DNA of 64,000 bases, taken from assembly GCA_019915015.1 (NCBI GenBank), contig JAHBBC010000002.1, positions 2,976,001 to 3,040,000 on the forward strand, written 5' to 3'. The stretch comes from Auriscalpium vulgare. Lineage: Eukaryota; Basidiomycota; Agaricomycetes; Russulales; Auriscalpiaceae. The position numbers were made by a program, and so were the translations under genes. The notes under the pieces are model-generated. The model was not told the origin of the DNA and ran no database searches. It worked only from the letters and a program-made list of their open reading frames with translations. This document shows positions 31,766 through 53,993 of the stretch, piece by piece. Every line of letters starts with the position of its first letter. Positions within the stretch are counted from its first letter, which is position 1.

Positions 31766-31907
31766 ATCAGATGGTCTCGTACGGTACTGTGGTATAGTCG
31801 TCGATGACCTATATCATATACATCACCAAATCACGGAAATATCTGTATAAACGGAGAGTGCAGCCAATACATAGCGGACGTGAGGTGAGGTACACTCCCG
31901 GTCTCCC

Positions 31908-33383
31908 TCAGGGCTCCGCCTCCCAGCCCCAGCGAATCACTAGCCCCGGCACCGCCGCCTGCAGCGCGGACGCACAAGCCTCATCCTCATGGCAGCCCAC
32001 CACCTCCAACTCCATCAGCACGTTCCCGGCCCGCGCCCGCGCCGCGAGGCACTGCGGCAACGAGTCCACGAGGACCGCGCTGGCCAAAGGGTGCGCGCGG
32101 ACGTCGACAACGAGCGTGGCGAGCGCAGGAAGGACGCCCGGCGCGCGCTCGAGTGCGGTGCAGAACGGGGGCACCGCGCCGCCTGTGAGCGCAATGCGAC
32201 GCAGCCGAGGCGCGCTCCCGAGCGCATGCAGCCACGCAACGTCGGGCGCGTCGTCGCCTGCGACAGCGAGCGCCTCCAGGTGCGTCGATGCCACGGACTT
32301 GAGCACGTGCGGGACGTGCTTCCAACCCTTGAACCGAAGCAGCAGAGCGGGCGGGCCGTCCGCGTCTCCGCTGCGCCACGCGCCCACCTCCACACCGCGC
32401 GGCCGGCGGGGGTCGCCCCTGCCGCCCGCAGCCAGCTTGACAACGGCACGCGAAACGGCGGCGCCGCGGGCGTCAATGAGCGCGTTCTTCACGGGGAAGA
32501 GCGCCGGGGGCATGTCCGCGTGGATGTTATATTCCACAGTGAAGCGGACGTCGGCGGGGAGTGCGAGGCGATCGATGATGAGCAGCACATCCTGGACGCG
32601 GGTCCGCGGATGGATGCGCGAGGTGAGGTGTCCCAGGGCCGGCAGCCGCGTAACCGGCACCTCGTCAGCGTCCTCCGAGGTCAGGTCGAGCGTCAGCCGC
32701 TTCAGCGCGGGCATCCTGCCCAGCGCGGCGAACATGGACGCAAGCACTGCGCCGGGCACCTTCACATGCATCGTGATGTTGACCGAGACGAGCTGCTGAA
32801 GCAGCAGCGGCGTCCAGCACAGCACTTCCCATGCGACCACAGACAGGCGCCGCAACTCCGGCAGGCCTGCCGCGCCGCCAAACAGGCCATCCAGGAGGAG
32901 GCCCGGTGCTTCATCGTAAATGCATAGCTTGAGGGTGCGGAGGAGCGGCGCGGGCGCGCAGAGGGCGGGGAGGTTATGAGAGAAGGTGTGCAGGTCCAGG
33001 ATGGCACACGTCCGCGCGAGATTTGCGCCGATAAATCGGGCATCGGGCCCTGGGTGGTCGGAGTAGAAGAGCTCACGGCATGTAGTCACCGTAAGCGGCT
33101 CGTTTTGGGCGCGGGAGAGAAATGCGGTGGCCCAGACGTCACCGAGCACGGATGGGAGGGCAACGTCGGAAGCCCAGAGGACGGGGTCACGAAGGGCGAT
33201 ATTCCGCCAGCGCTGGCAGACGTGTGTAACCTTCAGCCATCCAAGGTCAAGCTCGGCATGTTCTAGCCGTGGCCGATCGATTGAAGAAAGGGCAGAGAAG
33301 ACGAGGATGAGGAACTCGGGCGACAGGCAGGCAATGGGGACATTCCGGACTATGACGCTTGAGGCTACATCTTCATGGGGCAT
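31908..33383 (-). CDS. F-box/LRR-like protein, 491 aa
   Basis: Single coding exon from MPHEDVASSVIVRNVPIACL. F-box at residues about 15-70 (LSPEFLILVFSALSSIDRPR, VTHVCQRWRNIALRDPVL), then the leucine-rich body and terminus VIRWGWEAEP. Nearly identical to 60695-62449 but without that copy's internal duplication. Paralogues carry a 54-59-nt intron just before the ATG; here only its 3' half is left (to about 33410), because the sequence then jumps to the 33.4-34.3 kb repeat. The donor site is therefore lost and the 5' UTR must differ. Likely SCF substrate receptor; target unknown. Confidence 0.88.
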   Translation of the reverse strand: MPHEDVASSVIVRNVPIACLSPEFLILVFSALSSIDRPRLEHAELDLGWLKVTHVCQRWRNIALRDPVLWASDVALPSVLGDVWATAFLSRAQNEPLTVTTCRELFYSDHPGPDARFIGANLARTCAILDLHTFSHNLPALCAPAPLLRTLKLCIYDEAPGLLLDGLFGGAAGLPELRRLSVVAWEVLCWTPLLLQQLVSVNITMHVKVPGAVLASMFAALGRMPALKRLTLDLTSEDADEVPVTRLPALGHLTSRIHPRTRVQDVLLIIDRLALPADVRFTVEYNIHADMPPALFPVKNALIDARGAAVSRAVVKLAAGGRGDPRRPRGVEVGAWRSGDADGPPALLLRFKGWKHVPHVLKSVASTHLEALAVAGDDAPDVAWLHALGSAPRLRRIALTGGAVPPFCTALERAPGVLPALATLVVDVRAHPLASAVLVDSLPQCLAARARAGNVLMELEVVGCHEDEACASALQAAVPGLVIRWGWEAEP

Positions 33384-33414
33384 TTTCTGCGTGAAGATTT
33401 TATGAGCTGTTAGT

Positions 33415-34302
33415 ATGAAGAGGCTTGAGGCTTGGAGAGGACGTGTCACGTGTGCGACAGTGGGCGCTACTAGCGGGCCCAGCGGGCCGAGGTGCCCGCA
33501 GACGACTGGCACGACGCAATAATTTCTCGTCCTCTTCTTTCACCGTGTCCTCTTCTCCTGGCAGTGGCGCGCTCCAGAAAAACTACGCTCTCGCCAGTGC
33601 GTGCAGCGGTGACTTGCGGACTACATGCGGGATGCTCGGCTGAGGTGCGTTATTGGGTTTTTGGCAGAGCGCATTGTGAGCTGACCATCGTTAGTACGAG
33701 GGGCTTCCAACTTAACCGCTGCCATGACGGGTCTTTATTCAAGTATTCGCTGAGGTGTGTAGTCCTGAGAACTCGTAGTCTCACCGGGGGTTTGAGTCAA
33801 CCCGCGTGCGGTGCTTTTTCTCTAGCATCGCGGCGCATTCTACGGCCGGAGTCGGAGTACCATGGGATTCTCTGGTCAATGCTTGTTGTCGCTGTTGAAG
33901 TGCTGTAGGCCGGGGAGGAGTTATGTGCACCGCGGGGACGCTGTTGCGCTGGTGCGTCAACTCACATCGCATACACTTAGACCGCTGATCTGATTTTTTT
34001 ATGCAGGTAGCATCTCTTGGCGGTTACATCTCGCTCCTCGCACAACAGCCGTCCCCGCAATCTGCCAAGCCGCCGATTGGTATAGTGTTTTATTTAGGTG
34101 CGTAGCCCTCTTGATGGCGTAGCGGTAAGTTGACCACCAGCGCAGTCCAGCCTGCATTGTCCGCAGCATGCGTGACCTTCGAGTATACGCTTGCTGAGGC
34201 GACCCGCGGGGCGCAGACCTGGTTCTCGGACACCAATAGGACTTCTGAGCGTGCGGCGGAGCGAGCGCGGTGCACTCCTCGTCAGGTGCGTTACACGCGC
34301 CA
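33415..34302 (+). repeat. Inverted duplicate of 58162-59047
   Basis: About 890 bp matching the reverse complement of 58162-59047 almost base for base (for example GTGTCACGTGTGCGACAGTG and GACGGGTCTTTATTCAAGTA). No credible gene; ORFs are conserved only because the copies are recent. The remaining gap to 34675 holds no gene. Confidence 0.9.
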
Positions 34303-34675
34303 TCAAAGAGCGCATCGTGAACTGACAGGGGGGTGTTTCAGCCAGTATGCCTGGTTCTGCTGCGATGCGGGTTCCTCAGCGCGCTCACATATTTGCTATC
34401 ATGTGGCAGGCCCGGGCGAGCCAAGTGTTTTGTCTTTGAAGGATAAAATGCGCCCACCAAACGCGCTGCGCGTTCGAGCTCGGCGGGAGAACTGGCCGAG
34501 AGAGGCACACCAAGACAGCGGACAGTGATGGCCTATCTGTATACGCGGAAGCAGTGAATGCGAGTGATGATACAATGTATGTAGATAACTGAGATTCCGA
34601 AAACATTGATGTTCTCTCCCTGTAGTACGACGGTGTTGCAACAGTCAACAATTAGATACGAAAAAAAGGTTTTGC

Positions 34676-36160
34676 TCAGGTCTCCGCCGCCCAGCTCCAC
34701 CGAATCACCAGCCCCGGCACCGCTTCCTGCAATGCACGGAGACAATCCTCATCCTCGTCATACCCCACCACCTCCAGCTCCCGGAGCACATTCCCGGCGT
34801 GCGCCCGCGCCGCGAGGCACCGCGGCAACTTGTCCTCGAGAATGTCCTTGGCCAAACGGTGCGATCGGACATTAACAACGAGCACAGAGAGCGCTGGAAG
34901 TACGCTGGGGGGATGTGGCGCGGCGCAGAACTGGGGCACCGCGCCGCCTTTGACGGTGACGTGGTACAGCTTCGGCGCGCTCCCGAGGGCATCTAGCCAC
35001 GCTGCGTCGGGCGCATCACGCTCATGAGCATCGCTTCCGACAGCGAGGGCCTCGAGGTGCGTCGATGCAAGTGACTTCAGCACAGCCGGAACGTGCATCC
35101 AGCCGGCGAACTGAACTGCCAGCGCGGGTGCGCCGTCCGTATCTCCGCCTCGCCACACGCCCACCTCCACACCGCGCGGCCTGCCGGATTTCATCTTGGA
35201 CTCCGCAGCCAGCTTGACATCGACACGCGATATAGCGGCGGCGCGGGGGTCGATGTGTGCGTTCATCTCGGGGAAGACCGTCGGGAGCGCACGGAAGTAG
35301 TCCATACCTAAAGCGAAGTGGACGCGGGCGCCGGCGGGGAAGGCGAGGCGATCGAGGATGAGCAACGCATCCTCGACGAAGAAGTTGCGCAGGGAGAGGT
35401 GTCGCAGGGCCGGCAGCTGCGTAACCGGCACCTCGGTGACGTCCTCCGGGGTCAGGTCGAGCTTCAGCCGCTCCAGCCCAGGCATCTTGCCCAGCGCAGT
35501 GAACATGGAAGCGAGCACTGCGCCCGGCAGTTTCTGACTGGGTGCCGCGATATTGACCGAGACGAGTTGCTGAAGCAGCAGCGGCGTCCATGAGAACACT
35601 GTGGATACGGCCACGGACAGGTGCCGCAGCTCCGGTAGGCCTGCTGTGCCGCCGAAGAGGCCTTCAGGGAGGAATGGACGCTCGTGTACGGAGTGAAGGC
35701 TGAGGCCAAGGGTGTGGAGGATCGGTGCGGGCGTGCAGAGCGCATGTAGGTTATGAGAGTAGGTGCGCAGGTCCGTGATGGCACGCATCCGCGCGAGATT
35801 TGCGCCGATGAACGGGGTATCGGAGGGCGCGTTGAAGTCGTATTCGTCGAGCGATGTCACCGTAAGCGGCGCATTTTGGGCGCGGGTGAGAAAGTTGGCG
35901 GCCCAGAGGTCACCAAGGATGGATGGGAGGGCTATGTCGGAAGCCCAGAGAACGGGCTGATTGAGGGCGATGTTCCGCCATTGCTGGCAGACGTGGGTGA
36001 CCGGCAGCCATCCAAGGTCGACCTTGGTTTCAAAAACATCCATCCCGGGTCGATCGATCGAGGAGAGGATAGAGAAGACGAGGCTGAGGATCTCTGGCGG
36101 CAAGCGGGAAACGGGGACGTTCGGGACAAGGTTGGTAAAGTCTGCATTTGCACGGGACAT
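34676..36160 (-). CDS. F-box/LRR-like protein, 494 aa
   Basis: Single coding exon beginning MSRANADFTNLVPNVPVSRL. F-box at residues about 16-75 (LPPEILSLVFSILSSIDRPG, VTHVCQQWRNIALNQPVL), followed by the shared leucine-rich body (LFGGTAGLPELRHLSV, LEALAVGSDAHERDAP) and end RWSWAAET. I chose this Met because an intron with good signals (donor GTGAGTGCG at 36222, acceptor CATGCAG at 36164) ends three bases upstream, as in paralogues. Intact. Function as for other F-box receptors; substrate unknown. Confidence 0.88.
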   Translation of the reverse strand: MSRANADFTNLVPNVPVSRLPPEILSLVFSILSSIDRPGMDVFETKVDLGWLPVTHVCQQWRNIALNQPVLWASDIALPSILGDLWAANFLTRAQNAPLTVTSLDEYDFNAPSDTPFIGANLARMRAITDLRTYSHNLHALCTPAPILHTLGLSLHSVHERPFLPEGLFGGTAGLPELRHLSVAVSTVFSWTPLLLQQLVSVNIAAPSQKLPGAVLASMFTALGKMPGLERLKLDLTPEDVTEVPVTQLPALRHLSLRNFFVEDALLILDRLAFPAGARVHFALGMDYFRALPTVFPEMNAHIDPRAAAISRVDVKLAAESKMKSGRPRGVEVGVWRGGDTDGAPALAVQFAGWMHVPAVLKSLASTHLEALAVGSDAHERDAPDAAWLDALGSAPKLYHVTVKGGAVPQFCAAPHPPSVLPALSVLVVNVRSHRLAKDILEDKLPRCLAARAHAGNVLRELEVVGYDEDEDCLRALQEAVPGLVIRWSWAAET

Positions 36161-36757
36161 TTTCTGCATGAAGACTCGATGAGCTCTATAATGATACGAA
36201 AATGAGCAAGCTGCGCACTCACAGGGATTGGACAGGGTAGTTCTGGTGGAGATGAGCACGACTGGATAACGAGCGGTAGTTGGGTGTGGCTGCCAAAGGA
36301 GGGCCGTGGACTCTGGAGGGTTGCAGAGCGTTGCTACTGGGATAGGATGGGATGCAAACTGCAGGGGTCCCGAGTCCGTGAAGATTGCCGGCTACAAGCG
36401 GTTGTCAACGGGCAAAGGCAAAAAGCGCTGGTTGACGGCCAGGTCTTCGTGAAGGCGTGCGTGTATGCGGACTCGGTCGGGTGTCACGGTCGCTCACGGT
36501 CGACGTCTATGTACGTATCTTACATATCTATACAATTATATTCCTGCCTCGTGCTGGGCAACAAATGTCGGCGTCACGCTCGCGCCACACATGCAATTGA
36601 ACTTCGGTGGGTCTCGTGTCAGTGAATGCCGCCCGAAAGTACTCGCAATCACTGGTCGCAGGCCCGGTCAGGCTGTGATTCCTCATGATCATAATTAATA
36701 TTCATTATCCTGTGCAATGCTAACATCGGATATTCTGTCGACCCTCAGAGTAGGGCT

Positions 36758-38243
36758 CTACCTTCGAACCAACAGCCCTCGAACCGCCTCCTGCAGCGCA
36801 CGCACACACGACTCGCCCTCCGAATACCCCACGACCTGCAGCTCCTGCAGCGCGTTCCCGGCGCGCGCCCGCGCCGCGAGGCAGCGCGGTAGTGCATCTG
36901 TCAAAATGCTCCTAGCCAAACGGGTACGCTTGAACATGGATAACGAGCGCGGAGAGCGCGGGGAGGACGCCAAGATTGTCCGGATCCTCGAGCGCGGCAC
37001 AGAACGGGGGCAACGCGTCGCCCTGGACCGTGACGTGATGCGGGCGAGGCATGCTCCCCCCTGCGACCAACCACCGTGTGTCGCGCACATTGCCGCTCAT
37101 GGACAGCGCCTGGAGATGCGTTGACGCAAGGTGCTCCAGCACACAAGGGACGTAGTCCCAGACCATATCCCCCTTGTGGGCAAACTGAAGCACCAGAGCA
37201 GGTGCGCCGTTTCCATCGCCGCCGCGCCACGCATTCACCTCCACGTAGGGCCTTGGTTCTTGGCAGTGCAGGTGGGCGGCAGCCTGCCTGACTTCGACTG
37301 CGTGATGGGGGCGGCGCGGGCATCCACGCATGCAGCGGCCGCGGGTAAGAGCGCTCGAAGTTCGGCAGCCGGGTCGGTGGCCGAGTACATGTCGCAGTGG
37401 ATATGGACATCAGCAGGGAGCGCAACGCGCGCGAGGATGGGCCCGGGCCTCTGCAACGGTGCTGCGCAGGCGGAGGTGCTGCAGCGCCGGCGGCAGCGTG
37501 ACCGGCGCGCCTTCGGTGCTCTGCGGGCGCAGGCGCAGTTCTAGCCGCTCCAGCGCGCGCATCGTGCCGAGCGCGTCGAACATGGCATTGAGCACTGGGC
37601 GCGGAGTCGGCTGCGCAAAGAGGCTGACTTGGAGGGAGACGAGGTGCGGGAGCAGCAGCGGGGTCCATATGTAGACGTTGTGGGAGCTCACGGAAAGGTG
37701 CCGCAACATCGGCAGGCCTGCTGTGCCACCGAGCAGGCCGACCGGGAGGGGTGGAGGCGGACGCACGACGTGGACGAAGAGATTGAGGGTGTGGAGGAGG
37801 GGTGCAGGGCTGCAGAGTGCGAGCAGTCCATCGGCGTCACTGTCCAGATGCATGGCGCGCGTCCGCGCAAGATTTGTGGCCGAAAGTGCTGGATCTGTAG
37901 ATCGCCGAGCGTCGAGCCGGGTCGCAGCGGCACGCCTGTTAACTATGAGGGGTACGTTTCGGGCGCGGGCGAGAAAGGCCCAGGGGTTGGCAAACGGGGA
38001 CGGCACGATGATGTTGGCGGCCCAGAGAATGGGGTTGCGGAGAGCAACATTGCGCCAGAATTGGCAGACATGCGTGACATTGAGCCATCCGAGGCTATCT
38101 CTGAGGTGGAATCCGTAGCGGCGGGGTTGGTCGATGGAGGACAGATGCATGAATATCGCGCTGAGAATTTCTGGCGGAAGACGGGCGACCGGGATGTTTG
38201 GGACAATGACGGTCTCTCGAGAGTCTGCGTCGACCAAGGACAT
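36758..38243 (-). pseudogene. F-box/LRR gene with several frameshifts
   Basis: Starts well (MSLVDADSRETVIVPNIPVA, LPPEILSAIFMHLSSIDQPR, NVTHVCQFWRNVALRNPIL), with the body open to about 37460. It then changes frame at RPGPILARVALPADVHIHCD, again at YVEVNAWRGGDGNGAPALVL, and once more before ARSILTDALPRCLAARARAG. At least three single-base shifts, while paralogue order is fully kept. A recent pseudogene, or a poorly assembled gene. Confidence 0.85.
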
Positions 38244-39326
38244 AAGTAATCTGCATAGACCCGATGAGCCTGTAAGAATGAATGCGAGAGAGCGGAGAAC
38301 GTACAGAAGGACGGGGGGATCGCTAGTAGCAAGTTGAGGTAGGGGCCCACTTAGCTGACCTGCTGGCAGCCGACGACGCCCGCGCGCGTGCCTGCCTACC
38401 CTGCACCGTCACCACCAAGTCGCCAACTGATGGTTCTCATCACCGCCCCAACACAATCTCCAGTCAGAACCGCGCATGCAGTAGGTGCCAGGCCCACTGT
38501 GGATATCTCAATTCGCTTGGATGAGGTGCGTTGTGTGCGCTATCAAAGAGCGCATCGTAATCTGACGACTTCATGCTGGCAGAATCAATCCTCAAACACT
38601 GGTATCACGACGCAAATACGTCGCCAAGGTTCAGCTCTTCGTCACAAAACCGGCCTTTGGCTCGGGCGTGGTGCTCAGAACAGCCGCGCAAGTCTCAAAG
38701 TTCCGGACGCAAGGCTCTCATGATCGTCCTTAGGCCTCGTGTCCAGCAATAGTCAAATCTGTGAGCCGTGAGGGCGTCGGCAGGTACTATCGAGCTGACG
38801 GAGGAGCAATGGCACGACGGCGCGATGGTTGGTGTGGGGACCTCGTCAAGTGCGTTACGCGCTCCATCGAATCAAAAGCACCGTGAACTGACACTGGCTT
38901 CTGTCAGCTAGTACCTCTGCGAAACGCTCGCGCGCCGAGGAGTTTTTCCCGAATTCATCACTGCAACTGCCAGCGCACCGCTGATACGCAACGCCTCCGG
39001 ATACTCGCGCTTCGTTCGTGCTCAGGCCGTGCTGAGGAGGACAGGGCGGATGGTTCGTGCGTTGCATCCATGGAGCGCGCGAAGAGGGTGGGGTCGAGAT
39101 GCCGATGTGTATCAAGGACGCGATGCGAAGGGGATGTCGAAGGCGAGGACAGGGCAGCAGCTAAGCCTTCGGCGCGCGACTCCGCAGTCCCGGTCTGTAT
39201 CGACTGGCCTTGCGTCGGACCCTCCTCGCGAAGGACCACCAAAACGCTGAACTCCCAACGTCAGTACCGCTTACTACTTATTTTTCCGTCATTGTCCCAT
39301 GTCTGACGCTTCCGTGATTGTCGTAG
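38244..39326. other. No gene seen; shares an intron-like module with 34.3 kb
   Basis: Contains variants of GTGCGTT...CATC.AAGAGCGCATCGTGA..CTGAC (38525, 38842) also present near 34285. The KAP123 fragment begins abruptly after an acceptor at 39326, and I find no upstream KAP123 exon here. Confidence 0.45.
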
Positions 39327-40517
39327 CCTCTGGACCAGCATGTCAAGGAGCTGATCGGTCATGCCCTTCCACCCTTGATGGATATGTACGAATCAGAGGA
39401 TAACAAGTGCGTCGTGCTGTCCCTCTATCAGGGTTCGTTCGTTGATCTCGTTTTTGTCTAGGGGTGTCGTATCCTCGCTGTGCGTCGGTCTCGCCGAGAC
39501 GATCAACAAAATCGGGCCTGCTTTCCTTGAGAACTGTGCGTTTGGTGCATCGATTGTCGGGCGCTTCCGAGCTAAATTTCTATGCCATCTAGACTACGAG
39601 CAGTTCTGCTCCATGGCGGTGCAGATCCTCGAGCAGAAGGCCATCTGCCAGCAGGATCCTGATCAAGATGATTCGGAAGAGGCGCCCGAGGACCAGGCGG
39701 AGTACGATTCGGTGCTGATCTCGGCGGCGGGCGACCTTGTTGCTGCGATGGCGAACGCCATGGGCCCGAGCTTCAGCCAAGCTTTCGCCACGTTCTTCCC
39801 CCTCATTGCGAAATACTACGTGAGTGTCATTGTGGTCCGACCTTACTCGCTTGTCTGATTCGCTTGTCTTCACAGAAAAAGAGCCGCTCTCTGAGCGACC
39901 GGTCGGCATCCATCGGATGTCTGGCGGAGATTATCTCGGGCATGAAGGGCGCGATCACACCCTCGACAGAGCCTCTTCTGGAACTGTTCTACCGTGCCGT
40001 TGGTGATTCGGAAGCGGAGGTCCAGAGCAACGCTGCCTTCGCGACAGGCCTGCTCGTCGAGAACTCAGAGCAGGACCTCTCACAGCAGTTCATCCCCCTG
40101 CTCGGCGCACTTCGTCCACTGTTCGAGGTCCCCGCCGACGCGCCCGGGCCACGCTTCAACGCACGCGACAATGCCGCCGGCGCTGTTGCGCGCCTCATCC
40201 TGCGCAACACGTCCGCGGTCCCGCTCGACCAGGTGCTACCGATCCTGTTCGGCGCGCTCCCGCTCAAGCACGACTTCCTCGAGAACCGCCCCGTGTTCCG
40301 CGCGATCGTCGTGCTGTTCCGCCTCACGCCGCAGACGCTGCTGCCGTACCTGGACGGGCTGCTGCAGGTGTTCGCGCATGTCCTCGACCCGAATGCGCAG
40401 GACCAGATCGGCGACGAGATTCGCGCGGAGCTGATCAGCCTGATCGGCGCGCTGAATCAGGATTTCGCGGGCAAGGTGCAGGCGGCGGGGCTGGCGGTCT
40501 TTGTGCCGGGTGCGTGA
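39327..40517 (+). pseudogene. Importin-beta (KAP123/importin-4 type) C-terminal fragment
   Basis: Exons 39327-39406, 39462-39535, 39593-39819, 39876-40517, frame kept throughout and the normal stop reached: 340 residues of a protein that is usually about 1,100. HEAT-repeat motifs of the Kap123 C-terminus are clear: LAEIISGMKGAITPSTEPLL, EVQSNAAFATGLLVENSEQD, LPLKHDFLENRPVFRAIVVL and the end VQAAGLAVFVPGA. The first exon starts at a good acceptor but nothing of the Ran-binding N-terminus lies upstream. It cannot act as an importin by itself. Fragment duplication is likelier than a split gene, given the neighbours. Confidence 0.8.
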
Positions 40518-41116
40518 TTGATCCATAGAGGCTTCTTGTTGGTGCAGTGCGGTCATCTCTTTTTGTGTGTTTCTGTCAACGAGTCCTGTTTGTTGCACTG
40601 TTTGTTACGATATCCATTCCTTACATTGACGAGCTTATGTTGTTGTCACGATATTTCTGCGATAATGAGTGGAACTACCTGGCCGTTCCTTGACCAGCCT
40701 CCAATTCAAAACTCTCGTCGTCGACACGATCGCATAGCAAGACTCCCTCAGGCTAGGATAGGCAGTGAGCACATTGAAGGACGCACGTCGAGCCTGCCAG
40801 GTCGTAGGGTGATGCTACTCGAGCGACGCAACATAAATTCATTTCGCCCAGTCCACGCCCCTAGCTTCACTCTCCGCGGCGCAGTCTCGTGTCTGCCTCG
40901 CGGCCCTGCAGCCAGGGTGAATTGCCCAAAACGAGTCGGCGCAAACCTAAGTGACTCGACGTCGTGAGAGTGGGCGACAAGGGCATCCGAGAATCGTGAT
41001 GGCCATCCAATGGCCATCGATGGGGCAGAGGTCAAAAGACAGGGCCTGCGCGCAGAAACACCGTGTCGCTCCCCTCCGCCAACAGACTCAGACTGCGTAC
41101 CGCCCAGCACACTGCC
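40518..41116. other. Intergenic region between KAP123 fragment and microexon gene
   Basis: No gene recognised. The 3' end of the KAP123 fragment and the promoter of the following plus-strand gene must share this space. No TATA box evident. Confidence 0.4.
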
Positions 41117-44100
41117 ATGGACAAGCTTGAGGTGCACGCCATCTTGACAGCAGACGCGGGCCACGTCGCCCTCCAGTTACCCGCAGGCGTCACGGTGCAA
41201 AATGCCGCCGTCAGCCTTGGCGAAGCGATCCGCACCAAGCTCGAGACGTCCGATACACCGTTCCCCATGTCCCCCGAGGTCATCGCAAAGTACTTTGGCA
41301 GCGAGCTGCAAGTTTACCAGCGTACGTCCAAGGGTTGAGGATATGTGTAAATGCTGACCTCAGAGGGCAGGCGTCTGCTCGGCGTCGCCGGCCGATAATC
41401 CCACGCTCTCGTCGTTCGCGCCGCCCGCCAACGTGTCTCCCCACTACCTCATCGTCTTCAACATGAACGCGCCTCAGAGTGACGGCAACCAGACGCTGTT
41501 AAACGAGACCTTTCTCGCACAGCTTCAGGCTCTCTCCGCCTCCAATGCCAAGGTGCCCATCGCCGGCGAGGCGGCCGCTGGCACCGCCGCCGCCAGCAAG
41601 CCTGGTGCGTATGCCCGTGCACCGTGGTCTGCGTCCATGCTCATGCACCTCGCAGCAAGGAAGAAGAAGAGCAAGAAAGGCCGCGCCACGCCGCAGTCTG
41701 GCGCGGTGACGCCAGTGACGCCTCTTACGCCGGTGTCGCAGAGCGACGTCTTGCCGAGCGCACCAGTGTCACCGGGCCCATCGTCCCCGCCGCAGGACGA
41801 TATGGTTAGAAGGGTGAGCGATATATCTGCTGCGTGTTTTGTCAGACCACTGAGACTTGACAGCTCGAAGCTCGATTTGAGAAATTCCAAGCAGAGGTCT
41901 GTCGTTGCTCCTCGAACGATTGCCTTCGATTCACCACAAAGCCATCCGGTAGCAAGGGCGCAAGGTCTGTGCTTGGTATTGAGTGTTTGGCTATGACTCA
42001 CCTTGCATTTCTTTTGTAGGTCGACGAGCTCGAGACGAAGGTATGTTCCCTGGAATGCGTATGCTTGACTATCATTTACCACGAAGCGTTTTCCCGTAGA
42101 ACGATGCGCTCCAGACGAAGGTCTGTTCCCCGCCTTGCGAACGTATACGCTTGGCTTATGACTAACCTTGAAACTTTTTCGTAGATCGACGCGCTCGAGG
42201 AGAAGGTTCGTCGTTTTGCTTGATTCGTTAGTTGGTCGCGACTAAAGGCCTGGCAGAGTGACCGAGATAGGCGGGCTGTACGTCGCTCGCTTTCTGAGTT
42301 TGGCTACGACTCACGTTGGATTTCTTTCGTAGATCGACGCGCTCAAGACGAAGGTATGTTCCCTGGAATGCGTATGCTTGACTATTATGTTCTGGCTTTT
42401 TGAGTGTTTGGCTACGACTCACGTTGAATTTCTCTTGTAGATCGACGAGCTCAAGACGAAGGTATGTTCCCTGGAATGCGTATGCTGGGCTATCACTGAC
42501 CACAATGCCATCTGGTAGCACGGGCTTGAGGTCTGCCCTTGCTTTTTGAGTATTTGGCTACGGCTCACGTTGGATTTCTTTTGTAGATCGACGCGCTCAA
42601 GACGAAGGTATGTTCCCTGGAATGCGTATGCTTGACTATTATGTTCTGGCTTCTTGAGTGTTTGGCTACAACTCACGTTGAATTTCTCTTGTAGATCGAC
42701 GAGCTCAAGACGAAGGTATGTTCCCTGGAATGCGTATGCTGGGCTATCATTGACCACAATGCCATCCGGTAGCACGGGCTTCAGGTCTGCCCTTGCTTTT
42801 TGAGTATTTGGCTATGACTCACCTTGGTTTTCTCTTGTAGATCGACGAGCTCAAGACGAAGGTATGTTCCCTGGAATGTGTATGCTGGGCTATCATTGAC
42901 CACAATGCCATCCGGTAGCACGGGCTTGAGGTCTGCCCTTGCTTTTTGAGTATTTGGCTATGACTCACCTTGGTTTTCTCTTGTAGATCGACGAGCTCAA
43001 GACGAAGGTATGTTCCCCGCCTTGCGAACATATACGCATGGCTTATGACTAACCTTGAAACTTTTTCGTAGATCGACGCGGTCGAGGAGAAGGTTCGTCG
43101 TTTTGCTTGATTCGTTAGTTGGTCGCGACTAAAGGCCTGGCAGAGTGACCGAGATGGGCGGGCTGTACGTCGCTCGCTTTTTGAATACTTGCCTTCGATT
43201 CACCGGGAGTTATCTGACAGAACGCAAAGGAGGTTCGTCGTCGTGTCTTTCGAATGGTTGAGTGCTCGGCTGGTGCTAATGACGCGTCTCGCCTTCTTGG
43301 ATAGGTGTGTTGCTGTGGGTGAGAAGAGCGGAAGGAATGAGGATTGTCGACCCAGGAGGAAATTCAATGATTAACTTGAGCTCCCATAGAATTATGTGGC
43401 CGCCCTTGGTGGGGTCAAAGTCCCCCAGCGCGGTGATAGCGCACCACCCGTAGGGCACATTCTTGGAATCCCGATGAGGTACGGTCTGTGCTCGAGGGCC
43501 CAAGTTGAAAGTAGCCACAGGAAACACGCTTCGCCTGAACGGTTTGTGGAGGAGTGGGTTGCGGGCCTGCACGTCTGTTACGACTCCATCGAGATGCTCG
43601 AAGAGCCGTGGCCCATGCAAGGACGTTGCGCCTAGCGTATCGCAAAATGTGAGTAAGAGGAGTGGTCGAAAGGAAAGGCGACGCACTGCTCTGGAAGCCT
43701 GCAATCCGGCCCACCCCTTCAACGAGCATTTGGTAGCTCTCCCATTTGCACTCGGTCATAGAGCAGCTAAGGGAGAGAAACTTGGAGGTGCGTTGAAGTT
43801 TAGCAATATCATGTTTTTTTATATCTCACTTCTCGCATAGAGTATCGTCAAGGAGCACAAGCTCGATCGACGCGCTCTAGTTGACAAAGCGTCCCGAATC
43901 CTTTTCAACACACACCAAATCAGCATCGAAGACGTCAAGTTTAAAACATTCCAGATGTTCCTTGAAGACGCACACAGCAGGCTATCAGCCGACGAGCAGC
44001 AGCTGCTAACCGCCAACCGAGAGCTGCGCACGGTTTATTCCAACTGGCGATCGTCCGTGCGCGGCGAAGGGAATGACGCAGCGCATACGGCAGACGCCAA

Positions 44101-44236
44101 GAGGATGAATGATGCTGTGACTGCAATGGCGGAAGGTGATGACCGAACGGCGATGGAGAACATCCACAAGTTCTGCCAGGGCGACTACCCTACCCTGGTG
44201 CGTGACATTGATTCCGTCCTGCGGACTGATTTCTGA
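41117..44236 (+). CDS. Coiled-coil protein built from tandem heptad microexons
   Basis: Normal exons 41117-41321, 41371-41604, 41656-41813 and 41864-41896, then 17 microexons, then a last exon 43841-44236 (about 445 residues). Microexons of 21 nt encode seven residues: 42020-42040, 42100-42120, 42185-42205, 42257-42277, 42333-42353, 42441-42461, 42587-42607, 42695-42715, 42841-42861, 42987-43007, 43072-43092, 43144-43164. Those of 12 nt encode four: 41953-41964, 42519-42530, 42773-42784, 42919-42930, 43221-43232. All are phase 0, mostly between 51-64-nt introns with proper ends; two introns are 87 nt. Typical heptads: IDELKTK, IDALKTK; tetrads HGLE, HGLQ. The N-terminus (MDKLEVHAILTADAG) and C-terminus are not recognised. 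Confidence 0.75.
42020..43092 (+). repeat. Tandem array of microexon-intron units
   Basis: Units of about 146 bp (21-nt exon, 57-nt intron, 12-nt exon, about 56-nt intron) or about 108 bp (21-nt exon plus a fused 87-nt intron). Introns are almost identical between units: GTATGTTCCCTGGAATGCGT after each heptad exon, CACCTTGGTTTTCTCTTGTAG-like ends before the next. The flanking pair of exons (IDALEEK with SDRDRRA; IDAVEEK with SDRDGRA) is also duplicated about 890 bp apart. Confidence 0.92.
43276..43800 (-). pseudogene. 2OG-Fe(II) oxygenase-like (TET/JBP-type) gene fragment inside an intron
   Basis: Lies antisense in the last intron of the microexon gene. Two exons joined by a 55-nt intron read RIAGFQSSATSLHGPRLFEH..., then SVFPVATFNLGPRAQTVPHR, D, GWCAITALGDFDPTKGGHII, EFPPGSTILIPSALLTHSNT and GETRH, followed by a stop. 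It keeps an HxD (HRD) and a distal histidine (THSN) as in 2OG dioxygenases, but ends before the usual SFTQY...GG.FRW tail and lacks the N-terminus. I recognise the family from very abundant Agaricomycete proteins. Assignment to the TET/JBP class is likely but not proven. Confidence 0.7.
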
Positions 44237-44439
44237 CGGTGTCCTTGCACTTCTAGGAATTCGCGCCTTCGGCATGATACCTACGTCGTGCGATTGAGTT
44301 CGGCCTTGTGCTACACGCTTTTCTAGTCCTTTTTGCTTTGTTGTCGATGCTTTTTTTACACGTTGTACAAATACAGATTTTCTGGTGACCGGTTACCCAT
44401 TTCAGTGTGATCCAACCTCAGCGCGAGCCACGAATCACC

Positions 44440-46577: not shown

Positions 46578-48092
46578 CTAAATATCACAAACTGCCTCCG
46601 AGTAATCGCCATCCTTCGCCGTCCAGCGCCACCGAATCACCAGCCCTGGCACCGCTTCCTGCAATGCGCGAACACACGCCTCGTCCTCACTGCACCCCAC
46701 GACCTCCAGCTCCTCTAGCACATTCCCGGCGCGCGCCCGTGCCGCGAGGCACGGCAGCAACTTGTCCACGAGGATCTCTTTGGCCAAACCGATCTCGAGC
46801 GTTCGGAGATTAACAACGAGCAAGGAGAGCGCAGGCATGATGCCAGGCGCGCGCTTGAGCGCGGTGCAGAGCCAGGGCACCGCGCCGCCTTTGACCGTTA
46901 GGTGGCGCAGCCCGGGCGCGCTCTTCACGGCCTCAAACAACGTCGTGTCGGACAGATCGCCCCCGACGGCCAGCACCTCCAGATGCGCTGACGCTAGAGA
47001 CGTCAGCAGGGGCGGCACGTCTCCCAAATCCTCGAACCGAACCACCAGCGTGGGTACACCGTCCGTATCGCCGTTGCGCCATGCGCCCACCTCCGCATAG
47101 CGCTGCAATCGGCGCAGTTTCCTGTCCACCACCACCAGCTTGACATCGACATGCGAGATGGCGGCCGCCTGGGGCGCGAGGTATGTCATCATCGCAGGGT
47201 AGAGCGTTGGGAGTTCGTACTCGCCCCATTCCACAATGCAACGGACACGAATGCCAGCAGGGGTTCTGAGGCGCTCGAGAATGAGCAACGCCTGCTGGAC
47301 GGGGGTACGGAGGGTGAGGTAGCGCAGCACCGGCAGCGGCGTGATCGGCACCTCGCCAATGTCCTTCGTCGTTACTCTTGGCTGCAGCGCCAGCCGTTCC
47401 AGCGCGTGCATCCTGCCCAGCGCGGCAAACAGGGAAGCGAGCACTGCGCCAGACACGGTTCGCTCGTGCATCTTGATATTGACCGAGACGAGCTGTGGAA
47501 GCAGCAGCTGCGTCCATGAGAACGCTGTGTATGCGGTCACGGACAGATGCCGCAGCTCCGGCAGGCCTGCTGCGCCGCCGAACAGGCCTTCAGGGAGGGG
47601 GGGAGGGTCTCTTCTTTGGGGAATGCAGATACCGAGGGTGTGAAGGAGCGGTGCGGGTGTGCAGAGTGCACGGAGGCAATGGGGGTAGGTTTGCAGGTCC
47701 AGGATGGCACACGTTCGCGCGAGATTTGCGCCGATGAATTCGGTATTGGGGTGCAGCCCGGAGCGGGCGGGATAGCAAGCGTTGCAACTAGTCACCGTAA
47801 GCGGCACGTTTTGAGCGCGGGAAAGAGATTCGGCGGCCAAGAAGTCACCCAGCACGGATGGGAGCGCGATGGCGGAAGCCCAGAGAGTGGGCTCATTGAC
47901 GGCGATGCTCCGCCATCTCTGGCACACGTAGGTGACATTCAACCATCCAAGGCCAATCTCGGTACCTGAAGATTCTCTTGTTGGCCCAGGTCGATCGATT
48001 GAGGAGAGGACAGAGAAGACGAGGATGAGGATCTCGGGCGGTAGGCGGGCAACTGGGACAGCCTCACAAACGTGTGCATCGGCCCGGGGCAT
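46578..48092 (-). CDS. F-box/LRR-like protein, 504 aa
   Basis: Single coding exon from MPRADAHVCEAVPVARLPPE. F-box at residues about 13-75 (PPEILILVFSVLSSIDRPGP, VTYVCQRWRSIAVNEPTLW), body as in paralogues (LFGGAAGLPELRHLSVTAYT, LFAALGRMHALERLAL, LEELEVVGCSEDEACVRALQ), with a short extra C-terminal tail (KDGDYSEAVCDI). A 5' UTR intron (donor GTAAGTACT near 48150, acceptor GTAG just before the ATG) is positioned as in the other copies. Intact; likely SCF substrate receptor. Confidence 0.88.
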   Translation of the reverse strand: MPRADAHVCEAVPVARLPPEILILVFSVLSSIDRPGPTRESSGTEIGLGWLNVTYVCQRWRSIAVNEPTLWASAIALPSVLGDFLAAESLSRAQNVPLTVTSCNACYPARSGLHPNTEFIGANLARTCAILDLQTYPHCLRALCTPAPLLHTLGICIPQRRDPPPLPEGLFGGAAGLPELRHLSVTAYTAFSWTQLLLPQLVSVNIKMHERTVSGAVLASLFAALGRMHALERLALQPRVTTKDIGEVPITPLPVLRYLTLRTPVQQALLILERLRTPAGIRVRCIVEWGEYELPTLYPAMMTYLAPQAAAISHVDVKLVVVDRKLRRLQRYAEVGAWRNGDTDGVPTLVVRFEDLGDVPPLLTSLASAHLEVLAVGGDLSDTTLFEAVKSAPGLRHLTVKGGAVPWLCTALKRAPGIMPALSLLVVNLRTLEIGLAKEILVDKLLPCLAARARAGNVLEELEVVGCSEDEACVRALQEAVPGLVIRWRWTAKDGDYSEAVCDI

Positions 48093-48430
48093 TCTCTACG
48101 CGAACACTTGATGAGCTCGTACGAACACGAGCAAGCCGAGTACTTACAGGAGGTGTTGTCGCTACCGAGTGCGTCGAGAGAGCGTCGAGAGGTCCTGTAG
48201 TAATGGCACCCGGTACGGCGTAGGTGCCTGCAACCGTTAGTCCAGCCAACTTGATAGGCTCGCAAAAACTGCACCGTAGATGAAGGAAAGTTGGACAGAC
48301 AAGTACCCTAGCTGAGCGGGAGCGCACAGAAGAGGGAGGGTGGCTGGCGTTTCGGCCTCTCGGCCAGCTTGTGGCTCCGCGTGAATTTGCAGCCACCCAG
48401 TCACCCGCGTCACCTCACCAACTCACTGCA
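48093..48430. other. Upstream region of F-box gene, up to LINE insertion
   Basis: Holds the F-box gene's 5' UTR intron and probably its promoter. No gene. The LINE inserted at a pyrimidine-rich site at the far end. Confidence 0.5.
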
Positions 48431-48665: not shown

Positions 48666-51600
48666 TTAAATAGGGGGCCTGGGCGGGACAATACCCACTA
48701 AAACCTCTTTGGCTTTCGCCCATTCGAAGGGGAGGAATCTTTCGTCTTTCAGGGTTCCCTTCCAAGTGTCTTCCACGTTCTTGTAATTGCTCTCAGTTCG
48801 GATTATATTCCGTGCCGCAATCTGATCTATGACGAGCCTGTCATTGATGGCGCGATGCCATCTCTTCGTAATTGATGTGGCTGTGTGCGTGCGACCCCCG
48901 ATTTGCCTTTCGCACCGGAGCCGCCAGATAAGGTGTGCCGATTCTGATATGATAATTTTCAGAAGGCGCGTTGCGCCTGGGTCGCGTTTCCGCTCCTGTT
49001 CTTCTTCCTCTTCGTCTCTATCTCTGGTTCTTTGCTTGACTACCAGATTTCCGCATGCCAGTATTGTTCCTAAAGAGAGGTTGGGCCATGACTCCTCTCC
49101 ATGTGGCCATGGTTCTCTGGCCAGTTTCCATATTATGGTCCGCGGGTCGGACTCGCACTCAAAGAGTATGTGAGATAGCGATTCCTCTGGGTCGTCGCAT
49201 GCTTCACAGCGTGCTTTCTCATGGTCATTGATCCTTAACCAGAAGTCTCCCAGCTTGTAGCTATTGTGGTATGCTCGATATAGGAAGGTTCGTATTGGTT
49301 TCCGTATGTCTCGGTGCGTGATGCCCTTCCACAGTGTCGCGTTGGTTTCCTGATTGCCTGTGAAAGCTTCTAGCGCATCTCTCGCGAGATTCAGCTGCGT
49401 TTGCGGGCCTGATCTGTCGTCAGGGGTTACCCTTTCCCGTATTCCTTGGTACGCTATGGCTTGTGTCAGAGTGGCCAGCTTCGCGCCTGTGAGGTTCCAC
49501 TCTCTCTTGATGGTCACGTCGATCTCCGTTGGTGCGTCTTTCCTCGCTCCCCGGTCTGCGTATTCGTCTGCCCCGTCGTTCCCCGGGTCTCCGCTATGTC
49601 CTTTTATCCACTCGAACCACGTTGGCGCGGAGCGCCGTCTCAGTAGGTCTACTGCCTTCTTGAAGAGGTCTCTGTGTTCGATTCGAATCCACCCTCTATC
49701 CTCCCACGTTTGGAGGTGTTCTGTGAGTCCTTTCTTTACATACTCTGAGTCCGTTCTGAAGTGAATCGGTCTGAAATTGTCTACACGCAGCAACGCTAGA
49801 ATTACGGCTGCTAGTTCCCCTACTTGATTTGTCTTCGCGGTTCCGCCGATTCTGGCTGCCAGGTTCAGTGGGCTGTCCTCGGCAATCCATACGCCGCTTC
49901 CACATCGTGAGTTTAGTTTCCCATTGTTCATACATGAGCCATCGGTGTATATTACTAACGTGTCTTCCTGGTGGTTTAGGCCATTCTGGGGCCTCATCAG
50001 TCTTTGCGCGGGGATAGGTGCCGTCCCTTCGGGGTCTGTGAAAACCCGGAAACAGTCCGCTAGCGATTTCGACGCGGTTACCGTGGGGTTGAATAGGACG
50101 ACTCCCTTCTTGTTCGCCATTGCCCTTATGTTTTGGTCTCGCCGCCTTTTCGTGAGGGTCAATCCGTCCTTCGGCGAGGCAGCCCTCGGGTCTGACTTCT
50201 GGTTTAGTCTGCGCAGGATCTCTTGTGCCTCCATGGCGCATTTATGCGGGTTGTCACATCCCGCCCGGGCGTCCGTTTTGCATGGGGCGCATGCACACCG
50301 TGCCCTTGGGTAGTGCGGACGGCCTGGTCTATTTGGATCGAGTCTCTCCGCTATGGTCAAGTAGTCTCCGATCGTCCTGACTTTGTGGGTGTACATCAGG
50401 CACTGTGATCGTGCGGCTATCGGCTTGGGTTTGGTTGTGCCCAGGTGGTACCACGCCGGGAGTTGTTTTTTCAGCTCTTTCGTCATTTTGAGGACCGCAA
50501 ATTGTGCGTCATATGTTTTGGCCGCCAGCAGCATGTTCCTGATTTCTTTTGGCAGTTTCGTGTCTTCCTTCCTTCCTCTCAGCGGGGGATTCCAGCTCTG
50601 TAGGAATGTATTCAACAATGCCACCGAATGTATGTCGGGGAGGGTTCTGTTAATCAGTGCGTCTGTCAGGTAAGCCCATCTGGGGCGGCTCTCTGTGAGG
50701 TCCAGGTAGTCTTTGAGCCACATAAGCTCGATGGCGTCGTTCCTCGCTTTGATGTCGAGGAGGTCTATTCCTCCTTCTTCCTTGGGGCGGTACAGATGTT
50801 TCAGGTCAATTGGTGCGTTTCTGGTGTTTTCCGACCATATGAACTTCTTAATCATTTCCGTTAGGGACTTTTCTACGTTTTTCGGCATGCCTTGCGCTTT
50901 TGCCAGGAATTGGGAGCACCCTCCGGCAAACATCTGTACGACGTGTTTTTTGGCCATGATTGATGGGAAGGTCTGTTTCCATCTTGTCAGGTGTTCGTTT
51001 ATCTTGTCTAGGACGCGTCCCCAGGGAACCGTATCGTCTCCTCCGTTTCCAAGCCAAGCGCCAAGGTATCTGGCGACGTGGCCATCCTCCGTTATTCTGA
51101 TTTCCTCACCGATCTGTGCGTCGTCTTCGTTTATTTTCCTTGAGGAAATCACCTCTTTCCTGTACTCCTCGGAGCCTATCGGTATGATTTCTGTTTTCAT
51201 GATGTTGAATTTTGCGCCCGAGGCTGCACACCAGCGTGATAGGATTTCCGTTACATCTTCATATTTATCCTCATTTGACAGGTACAGCAGAGTGTCGTCT
51301 GCGAAGAGGTTTATTACCAGTTTGTCGACAAGGCCCGGGATTTCGAACCCTTTTATATTTGGCGCTTGTCGGAACATGCAGGCCAGGGGTTTGATTGCTA
51401 GATTGAACAGTAGGCACGATAGTGGGTCGCCCTGTCTTACCCCTCGAGTTATTCTTATATCGTCGCTGAAGTGACCGTTTATGTTTATTTTGGTGTTTGC
51501 GTTTTCGTACAGGGATTTCACCGTGGTGATAAAGATTTCAGGTAGGCCGAATTTCCTGAGAACTCGCCAAAGATAGTCGTGTTTTATTTTATCGTACGCC

Positions 51601-53993
51601 TTTTCTTGATCCAGCGCCATTATCACGCCGTCTTCGCTCATTGCTTCTGCATAGTGGATCATTGTCTGCGCCAATCTTATATGGTGGAAGATCGATCGGC
51701 CTGGGACGAAGCCCGCTTGGTCTGTATGTACCATGGCGCCCACTTCGCGCCCTAGGTTGACTGCCAGGGCTTTCGTGAGTAGTTTGTAGTTGGTGTTTAG
51801 CAGTGTTATTGGTCGATAATTTGCTATGTCTGTTCTATCTCCCTTTTTATAGATCGGGCACATCCAGCCCTCTGCAAAATCCGCCTTCGGGTCCACGCCA
51901 TTCTGCTGGATGTCTTGGAAGACGGTCGTCAACGTGCCCACTATGTCGAAGCTAGGTTCGTCTTTCTTCACTTTCTCCAGGTGTATTTCATGGAGTTTTT
52001 TCCAGAGCTCGTAGGGGCAGCCATCGAGTCCTGTCGCCGACCCTGTTTTCGCTTTCTTTAGGGCGTCCAGTACGTCTCCGTACGACACTTTGCTGTTAAG
52101 TGCCGAATTTTCTGGTTCCGGCATTTTTTGCTCCGGTGGGATAGCGTTGATGACTCTATCTTCGTTTTCCTTCGCTTCGTCAGCCGTTTGTTGGCGTTCT
52201 GATGGCGCATCCTGCAGGTTTCTGTGGTATTCTGCAGCTAATTGTGCCATCTTGATCGAGCTTGTCTCGTACTCGGGGGCTTGTCTTGCGCCGTTACCTC
52301 TCTGGCTGCCGTTGTCCCCGTCGTTCCGTGTGGGAGCTTTCCTTAGGCGGTACATTATGTCTCTGGGTTTTGACTCTTGGTTCACCTTTGGCCAGTACTT
52401 GTTTATCTGTTCGCCTTTTACGTGCCATCGGGCTTGGGCCGCTCGCTGCGCTGCCGAGCGTTGTTTTTGTTGTAGGTGGTCAAGTTCTTCCACTATCAGT
52501 GATTCTGTGACACGTAGGTCTTCGTCGGTGTCGAAATCCTTCTGCCTCGTGATTTGGCGCCTGCCCTTCTGCAGGGTTTTTATCCTGTTCTGTATGCGGC
52601 TTGTTGCTTTCTTACCTGCCGCCTTGGCTTTCGTTATTATAATCATTTTCAGCTGCAGCCACAATGTTTGTGGGTTAGCAATTTCCCGGTCATGCTGGGG
52701 TGCGTCTATTTTCTCCGCATATCTTATGCCCGTTCTAATGACTTCGTCGAGTAGAGCCTTGTCGTTGACGAGGTGGAGGGGCCACGTCCATCGTCCGTCT
52801 CCTATTTCTGGCGCCTGGTTTGAGGCGTGTCTGACTGATACTAGGTCATGGTCCGATGGTATCGCCTTCGGATTCGATGACCACTCGTAGATGTGTGGTA
52901 TGTGTCGTTCCGCAACATATATTCTGTCCAGTCTCGATTTTATCATCCCTTGGTTGTGGCGATAGGTGAATGATCTTGTTTTGGGGAAGGCTTCTCGCCA
53001 TGCGTCCCAAAGGCCGTACTCATGTCGGAAGTCTTGCAGGGCTTCCACTCCCCTTTCATCGTCGGCGTGTTGGGGGGCTCGGTCTCGGGCATCTTCCACG
53101 ATGTTCATGTCCCCCAGAGTGTAGTCTATCGTGTGTACTCCTAGTTCGTCAAGACGTGTTCTGATTTGCCCCCAGAATTCTGCGTGATCGGCTGCGTGGT
53201 TTGGTGCGTATATATTGATTATATTGAGCGTCTCCTCTGTGTTCCATTTAATGGTTAGGAGGGCCGCCCTACCCGGTACGAGTTCCGTTAGAGTGCATTC
53301 GTCCGTCTTCACCATTGTTTTGTTTAGGACGAAACCGACTCCAGCCGACCCAGTTGGATTGTCGGGGAGCGGTGAGTTTAGTATTAGCATTTTCTTGCTG
53401 TAGCGTTGGCGTAGCTCGCTTAGCTCGTTCTCCGCCAGGTGCGTCTCCTGCAGAGCCAAGATTCCTATTTTGTGCTCTTTTATCGCTCGGGCCACCTCTG
53501 GCCATATGCTTTGCACGTTTCCACTCCTTGTGCGGAAAGTACGTCCGTTCATGTTCTGAGACGATAGTTTCATGTTCGCCTTAAATTTCTTACCCTGGTG
53601 TGCTTCGCGGCGTGTTTGGGATGCGCTCTGCGGCGGTCTTTCCTCTGTAGCGTGGGCTCTGTCCTCATTTGGTTCTTCCCTGGGATTTTGGGAATTGGGC
53701 TGTTGGGCTTCTTGGGCGTGTCTCGCCCCTGGTGCTGGTGTGGCACGTCCACCTGCGCTCGCTCCGGTCGCATCATCTGGGGGTGTCCCGGCGGCAATGG
53801 ACGACCTCCCTCCGCTCCCGGAGAGGTTCGGACCGTTTGACGACAAAAACCCGTTATTGATAGAGTGATGTGAAGTTTGTGCAGCAGTCGGACTCAACGC
53901 ACCGCATACGACTATTCGCGGGCGTGGTCGGCATAACCCGGCCGACTCGGGTGGACACATGTCGGACTTTCCTTTCCTACAGTTCCTCGGCAT
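48666..53993 (-). CDS. LINE ORF2: APE endonuclease, reverse transcriptase, RNase H
   Basis: 1,775 codons without interruption. The N-terminus is low complexity. The APE-type endonuclease has ILALQETHLAENELSELRQR, YTLGDMNIVEDARDRAP and IPSDHDLVSV. The reverse transcriptase has ANYRPITLLNTNYKLLTKAL, MALDQEKAYDKIKHDYLW, RGVRQGDPLSCLLF and the catalytic FADDTLLYLS. RNase H follows (VIYTDGSCMNNGK, IHFRTDSEYVKKGL, FEWIKGHSGDPGNDGADEYA). Then comes a cysteine/histidine-rich end (ARCEACDDPEESLSHILFEC). This order fits the Tad1/I-type LINEs of fungi. It could still supply enzymes in trans, although the element lacks its 5' end. Confidence 0.95.
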   Translation of the reverse strand: MPRNCRKGKSDMCPPESAGLCRPRPRIVVCGALSPTAAQTSHHSINNGFLSSNGPNLSGSGGRSSIAAGTPPDDATGASAGGRATPAPGARHAQEAQQPNSQNPREEPNEDRAHATEERPPQSASQTRREAHQGKKFKANMKLSSQNMNGRTFRTRSGNVQSIWPEVARAIKEHKIGILALQETHLAENELSELRQRYSKKMLILNSPLPDNPTGSAGVGFVLNKTMVKTDECTLTELVPGRAALLTIKWNTEETLNIINIYAPNHAADHAEFWGQIRTRLDELGVHTIDYTLGDMNIVEDARDRAPQHADDERGVEALQDFRHEYGLWDAWREAFPKTRSFTYRHNQGMIKSRLDRIYVAERHIPHIYEWSSNPKAIPSDHDLVSVRHASNQAPEIGDGRWTWPLHLVNDKALLDEVIRTGIRYAEKIDAPQHDREIANPQTLWLQLKMIIITKAKAAGKKATSRIQNRIKTLQKGRRQITRQKDFDTDEDLRVTESLIVEELDHLQQKQRSAAQRAAQARWHVKGEQINKYWPKVNQESKPRDIMYRLRKAPTRNDGDNGSQRGNGARQAPEYETSSIKMAQLAAEYHRNLQDAPSERQQTADEAKENEDRVINAIPPEQKMPEPENSALNSKVSYGDVLDALKKAKTGSATGLDGCPYELWKKLHEIHLEKVKKDEPSFDIVGTLTTVFQDIQQNGVDPKADFAEGWMCPIYKKGDRTDIANYRPITLLNTNYKLLTKALAVNLGREVGAMVHTDQAGFVPGRSIFHHIRLAQTMIHYAEAMSEDGVIMALDQEKAYDKIKHDYLWRVLRKFGLPEIFITTVKSLYENANTKININGHFSDDIRITRGVRQGDPLSCLLFNLAIKPLACMFRQAPNIKGFEIPGLVDKLVINLFADDTLLYLSNEDKYEDVTEILSRWCAASGAKFNIMKTEIIPIGSEEYRKEVISSRKINEDDAQIGEEIRITEDGHVARYLGAWLGNGGDDTVPWGRVLDKINEHLTRWKQTFPSIMAKKHVVQMFAGGCSQFLAKAQGMPKNVEKSLTEMIKKFIWSENTRNAPIDLKHLYRPKEEGGIDLLDIKARNDAIELMWLKDYLDLTESRPRWAYLTDALINRTLPDIHSVALLNTFLQSWNPPLRGRKEDTKLPKEIRNMLLAAKTYDAQFAVLKMTKELKKQLPAWYHLGTTKPKPIAARSQCLMYTHKVRTIGDYLTIAERLDPNRPGRPHYPRARCACAPCKTDARAGCDNPHKCAMEAQEILRRLNQKSDPRAASPKDGLTLTKRRRDQNIRAMANKKGVVLFNPTVTASKSLADCFRVFTDPEGTAPIPAQRLMRPQNGLNHQEDTLVIYTDGSCMNNGKLNSRCGSGVWIAEDSPLNLAARIGGTAKTNQVGELAAVILALLRVDNFRPIHFRTDSEYVKKGLTEHLQTWEDRGWIRIEHRDLFKKAVDLLRRRSAPTWFEWIKGHSGDPGNDGADEYADRGARKDAPTEIDVTIKREWNLTGAKLATLTQAIAYQGIRERVTPDDRSGPQTQLNLARDALEAFTGNQETNATLWKGITHRDIRKPIRTFLYRAYHNSYKLGDFWLRINDHEKARCEACDDPEESLSHILFECESDPRTIIWKLAREPWPHGEESWPNLSLGTILACGNLVVKQRTRDRDEEEEEQERKRDPGATRLLKIIISESAHLIWRLRCERQIGGRTHTATSITKRWHRAINDRLVIDQIAARNIIRTESNYKNVEDTWKGTLKDERFLPFEWAKAKEVLVGIVPPRPPI

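Follow-up and report, generated by a model that had tools for sequence, protein, structure and literature searches.

Sequence evidence for a coiled coil encoded by tandem 21- and 12-nt microexons in the fungus Auriscalpium vulgare

Repeat proteins such as collagen and the PEVK region of titin have grown by tandem duplication of an in-phase exon together with its intron, where the exons are longer and the repeated unit is not a coiled-coil heptad. As described in part of PMC10526429, schistosome MEGs contain ten to twenty very short exons whose lengths are mostly multiples of 3; they encode secreted proteins from exons of mostly 15 bp separated by introns of 0.1-5 kb. In fungi, the nank family of Tuber melanosporum, NACHT-ankyrin receptors with multiple codon-sized (3-nt) microexons, is diversified by alternative splicing according to the relevant parts of PMC4986451 and PMC10197012, and microexon characterization is said to be relatively limited in part of PMC11121469. 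Among the papers listed by searches of open-access literature, in which most subscription journals are missing, none describes a gene whose exons each encode a single coiled-coil step. This agrees with the original prediction, which knew of no described gene of this design, except that tandem microexon genes as such have already been described.

In the window (the whole 64,000-nt stretch of A. vulgare DNA that was analyzed), gene A is a predicted 24-exon model on the plus strand (41117-44277) with a 456-residue frame that is open throughout. Three longer exons are followed by one of 33 nt, 17 microexons, and exons of 51, 357, and 21 nt. In the predicted product, an N-terminal region and a basic linker very probably precede a coiled coil, which is followed by a helical C-terminal domain, as judged from the sequence. 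Exon 1 (41117-41321), with the gene start (MDKLEVHAIL...), aligns with the start of the annotated protein P0001 described below, and the comparison with P0001 also bears on exon 2 (41371-41604), encoding the N-terminal region, and exon 3 (41656-41813), encoding a basic and Ser/Pro-rich linker (ARKKKSKKGR...). Exon 4 (41864-41896; LEARFEKFQAE) is the 33-nt exon that precedes the array, and such an exon is common to gene A and its paralogues B, C, and D.

The microexons of the model (41953-43232) comprise 12 of 21 nt and five of 12 nt, all in phase 0 at both ends, which bears out the predicted seven- and four-residue units following a 33-nt exon. On the plus strand they encode, in order, QGRK (41953-41964), VDELETK (42020-42040), NDALQTK (42100-42120), IDALEEK (42185-42205), SDRDRRA (42257-42277), IDALKTK (42333-42353), IDELKTK (42441-42461), HGLE (42519-42530), IDALKTK (42587-42607), IDELKTK (42695-42715), HGLQ (42773-42784), IDELKTK (42841-42861), HGLE (42919-42930), IDELKTK (42987-43007), IDAVEEK (43072-43092), SDRDGRA (43144-43164), and NAKE (43221-43232), where the four-residue units are the 12-nt exons and QGRK and HGLE also occur in P0001. 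An alternative acceptor, seen by eye, would extend the SDRDRRA exon to 30 nt, likewise in phase 0; EEK immediately precedes SDRD in P0001, in keeping with 21 nt. Beyond the array, the model continues with exon 22 (43737-43787; 51 nt, LSHLHSVIEQLRERNLE), exon 23 (43841-44197) with the C-terminal helical domain, and exon 24 (44257-44277), which encodes EFAPSA and the stop codon, where P0001 ends in EYSPSA.

The genome (51.63 Mb in 96 contigs) was searched for homologues with the C-terminal domain, the N-terminal region, and the array DNA, which gave at least five loci including A, a lower bound as the searches scored the best candidates. Paralogue B (C2:3061688 downward) is an inverted partial duplicate situated about 41 kb from A. 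The B array likewise numbers 17 microexons, of which 13 are 21 nt and four are 12 nt long, in an order unlike that of A and with units absent from A (IDGHKAK, IDELNAT, HTADRLE, and others), and B is without the C-terminal domain. By sequence comparison, B is a recent duplicate of A: over 1,269 bp of the upstream gene, the two copies differ by one indel column and no substitution; the intergenic DNA upstream has four substitutions in 599 bp, exons 1-4 have four substitutions and one lost codon, introns 1-4 two substitutions, and the right-hand end of the array five in 272 bp. As B has no C-terminal domain and the match stops inside the upstream gene, A is presumably the original and B the truncated copy. 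The inverted duplication spans about 4.5 kb (window 39249-43787 versus C2:3059453-3063557, matching with gaps) and covers most of gene A along with a portion of the gene upstream; the latter has a HEAT-repeat match below the cut-off and is importin-like by eye.

Paralogue C (C2:2914936 on) has exon-like segments of 33, 27, 21, 21, and 21 nt, and three of its eight delimited segments are not multiples of 3, so that this copy looks decayed. In paralogue D, on another contig (C6), the 33-nt exon comes before eight exons of 21 nt, and there is one further exon of 30 nt; all are in phase 0 and are separated by introns of 55 or 58 nt. Near-identical exon and intron are repeated at near-constant spacing. 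Paralogue E (L020, C13) shares the architecture of A, except that its coil lies in a single exon whereas that of A is split into microexons. In E and in the annotated A. vulgare protein P0002, the N-terminal region, the coil, and the C-terminal domain follow in the same order as in A, and the C-terminal domains are homologous.

Other features of the window were recorded in passing. A cluster of F-box-like genes in both orientations (29361-38408, 46578-48095, and 60575-62449), for which all three scanned open frames match and the others are F-box-like by eye, also occurs beside copy C and is linked to the neighborhood of that copy by DNA similarity. An open frame in this cluster that is F-box-like by eye contains a 297-bp tandem duplication (61635-62228; 99% match) in which the frame is kept. 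A 141-bp unit with a length divisible by 3 is repeated in tandem about nine times at 6776-8074 and is open in several frames, and a 1782-codon open frame on the minus strand (48666-54014) has endonuclease, reverse transcriptase, and RNase H matches and is a LINE-type element.

A profile was built from A, D, and E with most of the coil left out and was scored against the 8000 candidates that had the most words in common with it; it retrieved two annotated proteins, P0001 and P0002, both from A. vulgare. P0001 (FA95DRAFT_1610267) is a conceptual translation, and its alignment with spliced A spans 462 columns at 68%. In the parts outside the coil, identity is 174 of 203 (86%) and 92 of 125 (74%) aligned residues, the latter in the C-terminal part of A. 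This likeness is lower than that between P0002 and E, which are identical at 365 of 379 residues (96%) and differ in coil length by exactly 7 residues, one extra heptad in P0002. QGRK, ELETK, HGLE, and SDRD occur in P0001 in the same order as in A. The coil of P0001 starts, like those of A and B, with LEARFESFQAE, QGRK, INELETK, and HGLE, and further on contains GAADRLE, which is like HTADRLE of B, and EEK-SDRDMRT; segmented by hand, it can be divided into 7- and 4-residue units that add up. These landmarks support the predicted microexon splicing of A. Comparison between strains had been proposed as a check, and setting P0001, as a candidate allele or orthologue of the A locus, beside A answers it in part.

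Splice-like signals recur in the array at one particular spacing. The array of gene A contains 12 matches to YAG-N21-GTNNGT, where 300 dinucleotide shuffles average 0.16, and other spacers of 6 to 45 nt between YAG and GTNNGT gave 0-2 matches each. The same motif occurs 13 times in B (expected 0.16) and eight times in D (expected 0.05); as the units of gene A arose by duplication, they are not independent trials, and D and P0001 constitute the more independent evidence. Genome-wide, GTAG-N21-GTATGT had 93 matches versus 132 for the reversed control pattern and, among the matches listed, clustered only in gene A (seven) and copy B (eight), the pattern being blind to D-type arrays. GCAG-N21-GTCNGT had 626 matches versus 884 for its control pattern, with the first of the places listed, so that this count decides nothing about clustering, and a DNA search with the D array as query returned only the D array itself and the adjoining intron. 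Additional arrays that use different splice signals may therefore exist in the genome.

Intron lengths in the array, counted from the 33-nt exon up to NAKE, range from 51 to 87 nt and are mostly 51-64 nt; of these 17 introns, 14 have GTNNGT donors and three GTCTGC, and 14 have TAG acceptors and three CAG. All 17 contain the loose branch-like site YTNAY, for which shuffles give 10.4, and 10 contain the stricter CTNAY (5.0 by shuffle). In D, nine of nine introns contain YTNAY and none contains CTNAY (2.2 by shuffle), which counts against microexon splicing. None of the 43 array introns (17 in A, 17 in B, and nine in D) is both frame-preserving and stop-free. By eye, the introns of A fall into length classes of 51, 55-57, 59, 64, and 87 nt and are mostly near-identical inside a class and only distantly alike across classes, so the near-identity expected of all introns holds mostly within classes and not between them. 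Best alignment scores for the array introns of A, C, and D, with those of C delimited by hand, were 36.5, 38.0, and 28.5, where the null maxima reached at most 30.0, 29.0, and 23.0 in 100 shuffles, and five non-array introns of A scored 13.5 and 8.0 against 25.0 and 23.5. This likeness beyond shuffles suggests that an ancestral exon-intron unit was likely multiplied and homogenized separately at each locus.

The coiled coil that had been predicted is reflected in a hydrophobic repeat of 3.58 residues in spliced A, over 132 residues from the microexons and the flanking 33- and 51-nt exons, where two turns for each of 12 heptads and one for each of five tetrads give an expected period of 104/29 = 3.59. 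A four-residue insertion is a classical coiled-coil stutter. The periods of B (3.54; predicted 3.57) and P0001 (3.54) are similar; the power was reached by one of 1000 shuffles for A, one of 1000 for B, and seven of 1000 for P0001, where shuffles were scanned on a coarser period grid than the real sequences. The hydrophobic period was not significant in D (202 of 1000 shuffles) or E (257 of 1000), and the SDRDxRA heptads are without hydrophobic core residues, both of which count against the preferred reading. D lies above the Pfam leucine-zipper cut-off (HALZ, 41.1 versus 28.1 bits). The P0001 model, based on three sequences, shows the coil as helices at 181-234 and 240-324, and ten-residue blocks from 191 to 310 have mean pLDDT values of 72-94, with a whole-protein mean of 52.3 and low confidence for the remainder.

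The C-terminal domain of A is helical in a low-confidence model. Its motif R-x-x-G-N-x-x-A-H is found in the C-terminal domains with P0002 (I for N) as the single exception. Similarity to DUF4145 is below the cut-off, and kinship with HEPN is a possible lead. A Pfam scan at E up to 1 returned no NACHT or ankyrin match among the best 25 of 26 families for A or all 18 of 18 for D. As homology queries, residues 280-398 of D gave no matches and residues 262-386 of P0002 only P0002 itself. P0001 and P0002 had weak NCBIfam and PADLOC matches, which were read as coil-driven, and the C-terminal exon of A had none in these collections at E up to 0.1. A sequence-profile search of the PDB gave no match, and a PDB fold search with the low-confidence model gave nothing distinctive. 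Most likely, A encodes an intracellular oligomerizing protein whose coil would set assembly.

Tandem periods of 254, 146, and 108 bp are found in the array of gene A, and the 254- and 146-bp repeats each span several exons with their introns, which supports the prediction that exon and intron multiplied together. A and B differ by whole units in number and order, in keeping with the expected change in whole units. By eye, the 87-nt intron appears to be the remnant left after loss of a 12-nt exon and parts of both its introns, and removal of nine bases from the 21-nt HTADRLE unit of B would leave something like the 12-nt HGLE unit. A and B together have 13 distinct heptad exons, for which a minimum tree has 21 non-synonymous and 5 synonymous changes, and with a pN/pS of 1.14, no diversifying selection was found among these exons. 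Residue identity in the units thus shows no sign of selection; residues seem to drift, and length and phase seem to stay.

The exon-like look of the array could also come from an intronic minisatellite whose repeat unit is edged by AG and GT and which is removed as one large intron. The end of exon 3 and the start of exon 22 are both in phase 0, so skipping of the whole array would preserve the frame. We nevertheless regard this as highly improbable, as P0001 has a coil at the array position with QGRK, HGLE, and SDRD, E and P0002 also have a long coil there, every array intron of A has a loose branch-like site, and the D array has equal exon length with different sequence. Scarcely more probable is the insertion of introns one by one into a contiguous coil, in the manner of introner-like elements. 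The likeness of array introns across A, C, and D and the uninterrupted coil of E would fit such insertion, whereas tandem periods that take in several exons and introns, and the regular repetition of exon plus intron in D, argue for their duplication together. Blocks of more than one exon in which neighboring units are equally alike in exon and intron, which would refute insertion, are present in part. That the microexons are real and form a modular array without a role of its own, as a neutral by-product of unequal recombination, has about an even chance and is compatible with the array having multiplied as proposed; the region would tolerate any heptad, and the array would be kept only because its units are in frame. 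The pN/pS of about 1.1 among units, the same architecture without microexons in E, and the free difference in array order between A and B favor neutrality, while the similar length of the coil from QGRK to the last SDRD unit in A (89 aa; window 41965-43143), B (92 aa), and P0001 (88 aa), whose units differ, does not. The latter might reflect stabilizing selection in a sample that is small and in which A and B are recently related.

A recent insertion bears on the present state of gene A. The intron after NAKE is 504 nt long and contains a 442-bp genomic repeat fragment (43280-43721), identified by DNA search and by its absence at the equivalent place in B. The matches listed for this fragment comprise 22 places, its own included, and two others among the copies shown are 100% identical; two of the other places share longer flanks with each other. 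A weak match to Tet_JBP oxygenase on the minus strand is below the cut-off. No canonical branch site was seen by eye near the acceptor of this intron, so that, together with its length, gene A may be mis-spliced at the last array join and the joining to the C-terminal domain impaired. It is conceivable, if rather doubtful, that A is now a pseudogene or truncated, with the insertion disconnecting the C-terminal domain, which would again be compatible with the proposed origin of the array. The identical copies of the fragment, the length of the intron, and the duplicate B without the domain point in this direction, but the C-terminal exon is open and retains its identity to P0001, and the 24-exon reading is open throughout.

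The reading we prefer, that an ancestral exon-plus-intron unit was multiplied by recombination and the coil altered in 7- or 4-residue steps, has a high probability. An ancestral heptad exon with its intron would have been multiplied via unequal recombination or slippage. Splice sites would be paired across each short intron, and an exon of 12-21 nt would thus not be too small. Because every unit keeps phase 0, has a length divisible by 3, and covers one or two turns of the coiled coil, turnover of the array would be tolerated; gain, loss, or reordering of units, or exon skipping, would leave the frame and the helical register usable, and the length and surface of the coil could evolve in modular steps. 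It is a good deal less probable, and on the whole unlikely, that the coil consists of interchangeable two-turn and one-turn exon cassettes whose recombination and/or selective inclusion sets its length and pairing surface. Such a code for coil length, heritable and perhaps also acting through splicing, would, for example, diversify oligomerizing partners in a fast-changing fungal gene family.

If the preferred reading is true, exon size and a structural unit of the protein are directly linked, which touches on the old question of exons and modules. The array would be a natural test bed for how the spliceosome handles serial exons of 12-21 nt and for length change in repeat proteins without frameshifts. 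Since exons this small are easily missed, microexon genes of such design are likely mis-annotated.

Compared with known systems, gene A resembles the schistosome MEGs in its 17 microexons of 21 or 12 nt and its 33-nt exon, all multiples of 3. It differs from them in its short array introns (51-87 nt; 504 nt where the insertion lies), in being fungal, in exons that match coiled-coil steps, and in that no secretion signal was seen by eye. Like Tuber nank, gene A belongs to a fungal family with multiple microexons, although its exons are of 21 and 12 nt and encode a coiled coil, and it has no NACHT or ankyrin match. As in titin PEVK and collagen, the array appears to encode a repeat protein grown through duplication of exon and intron together, in this case with exons the size of a heptad.
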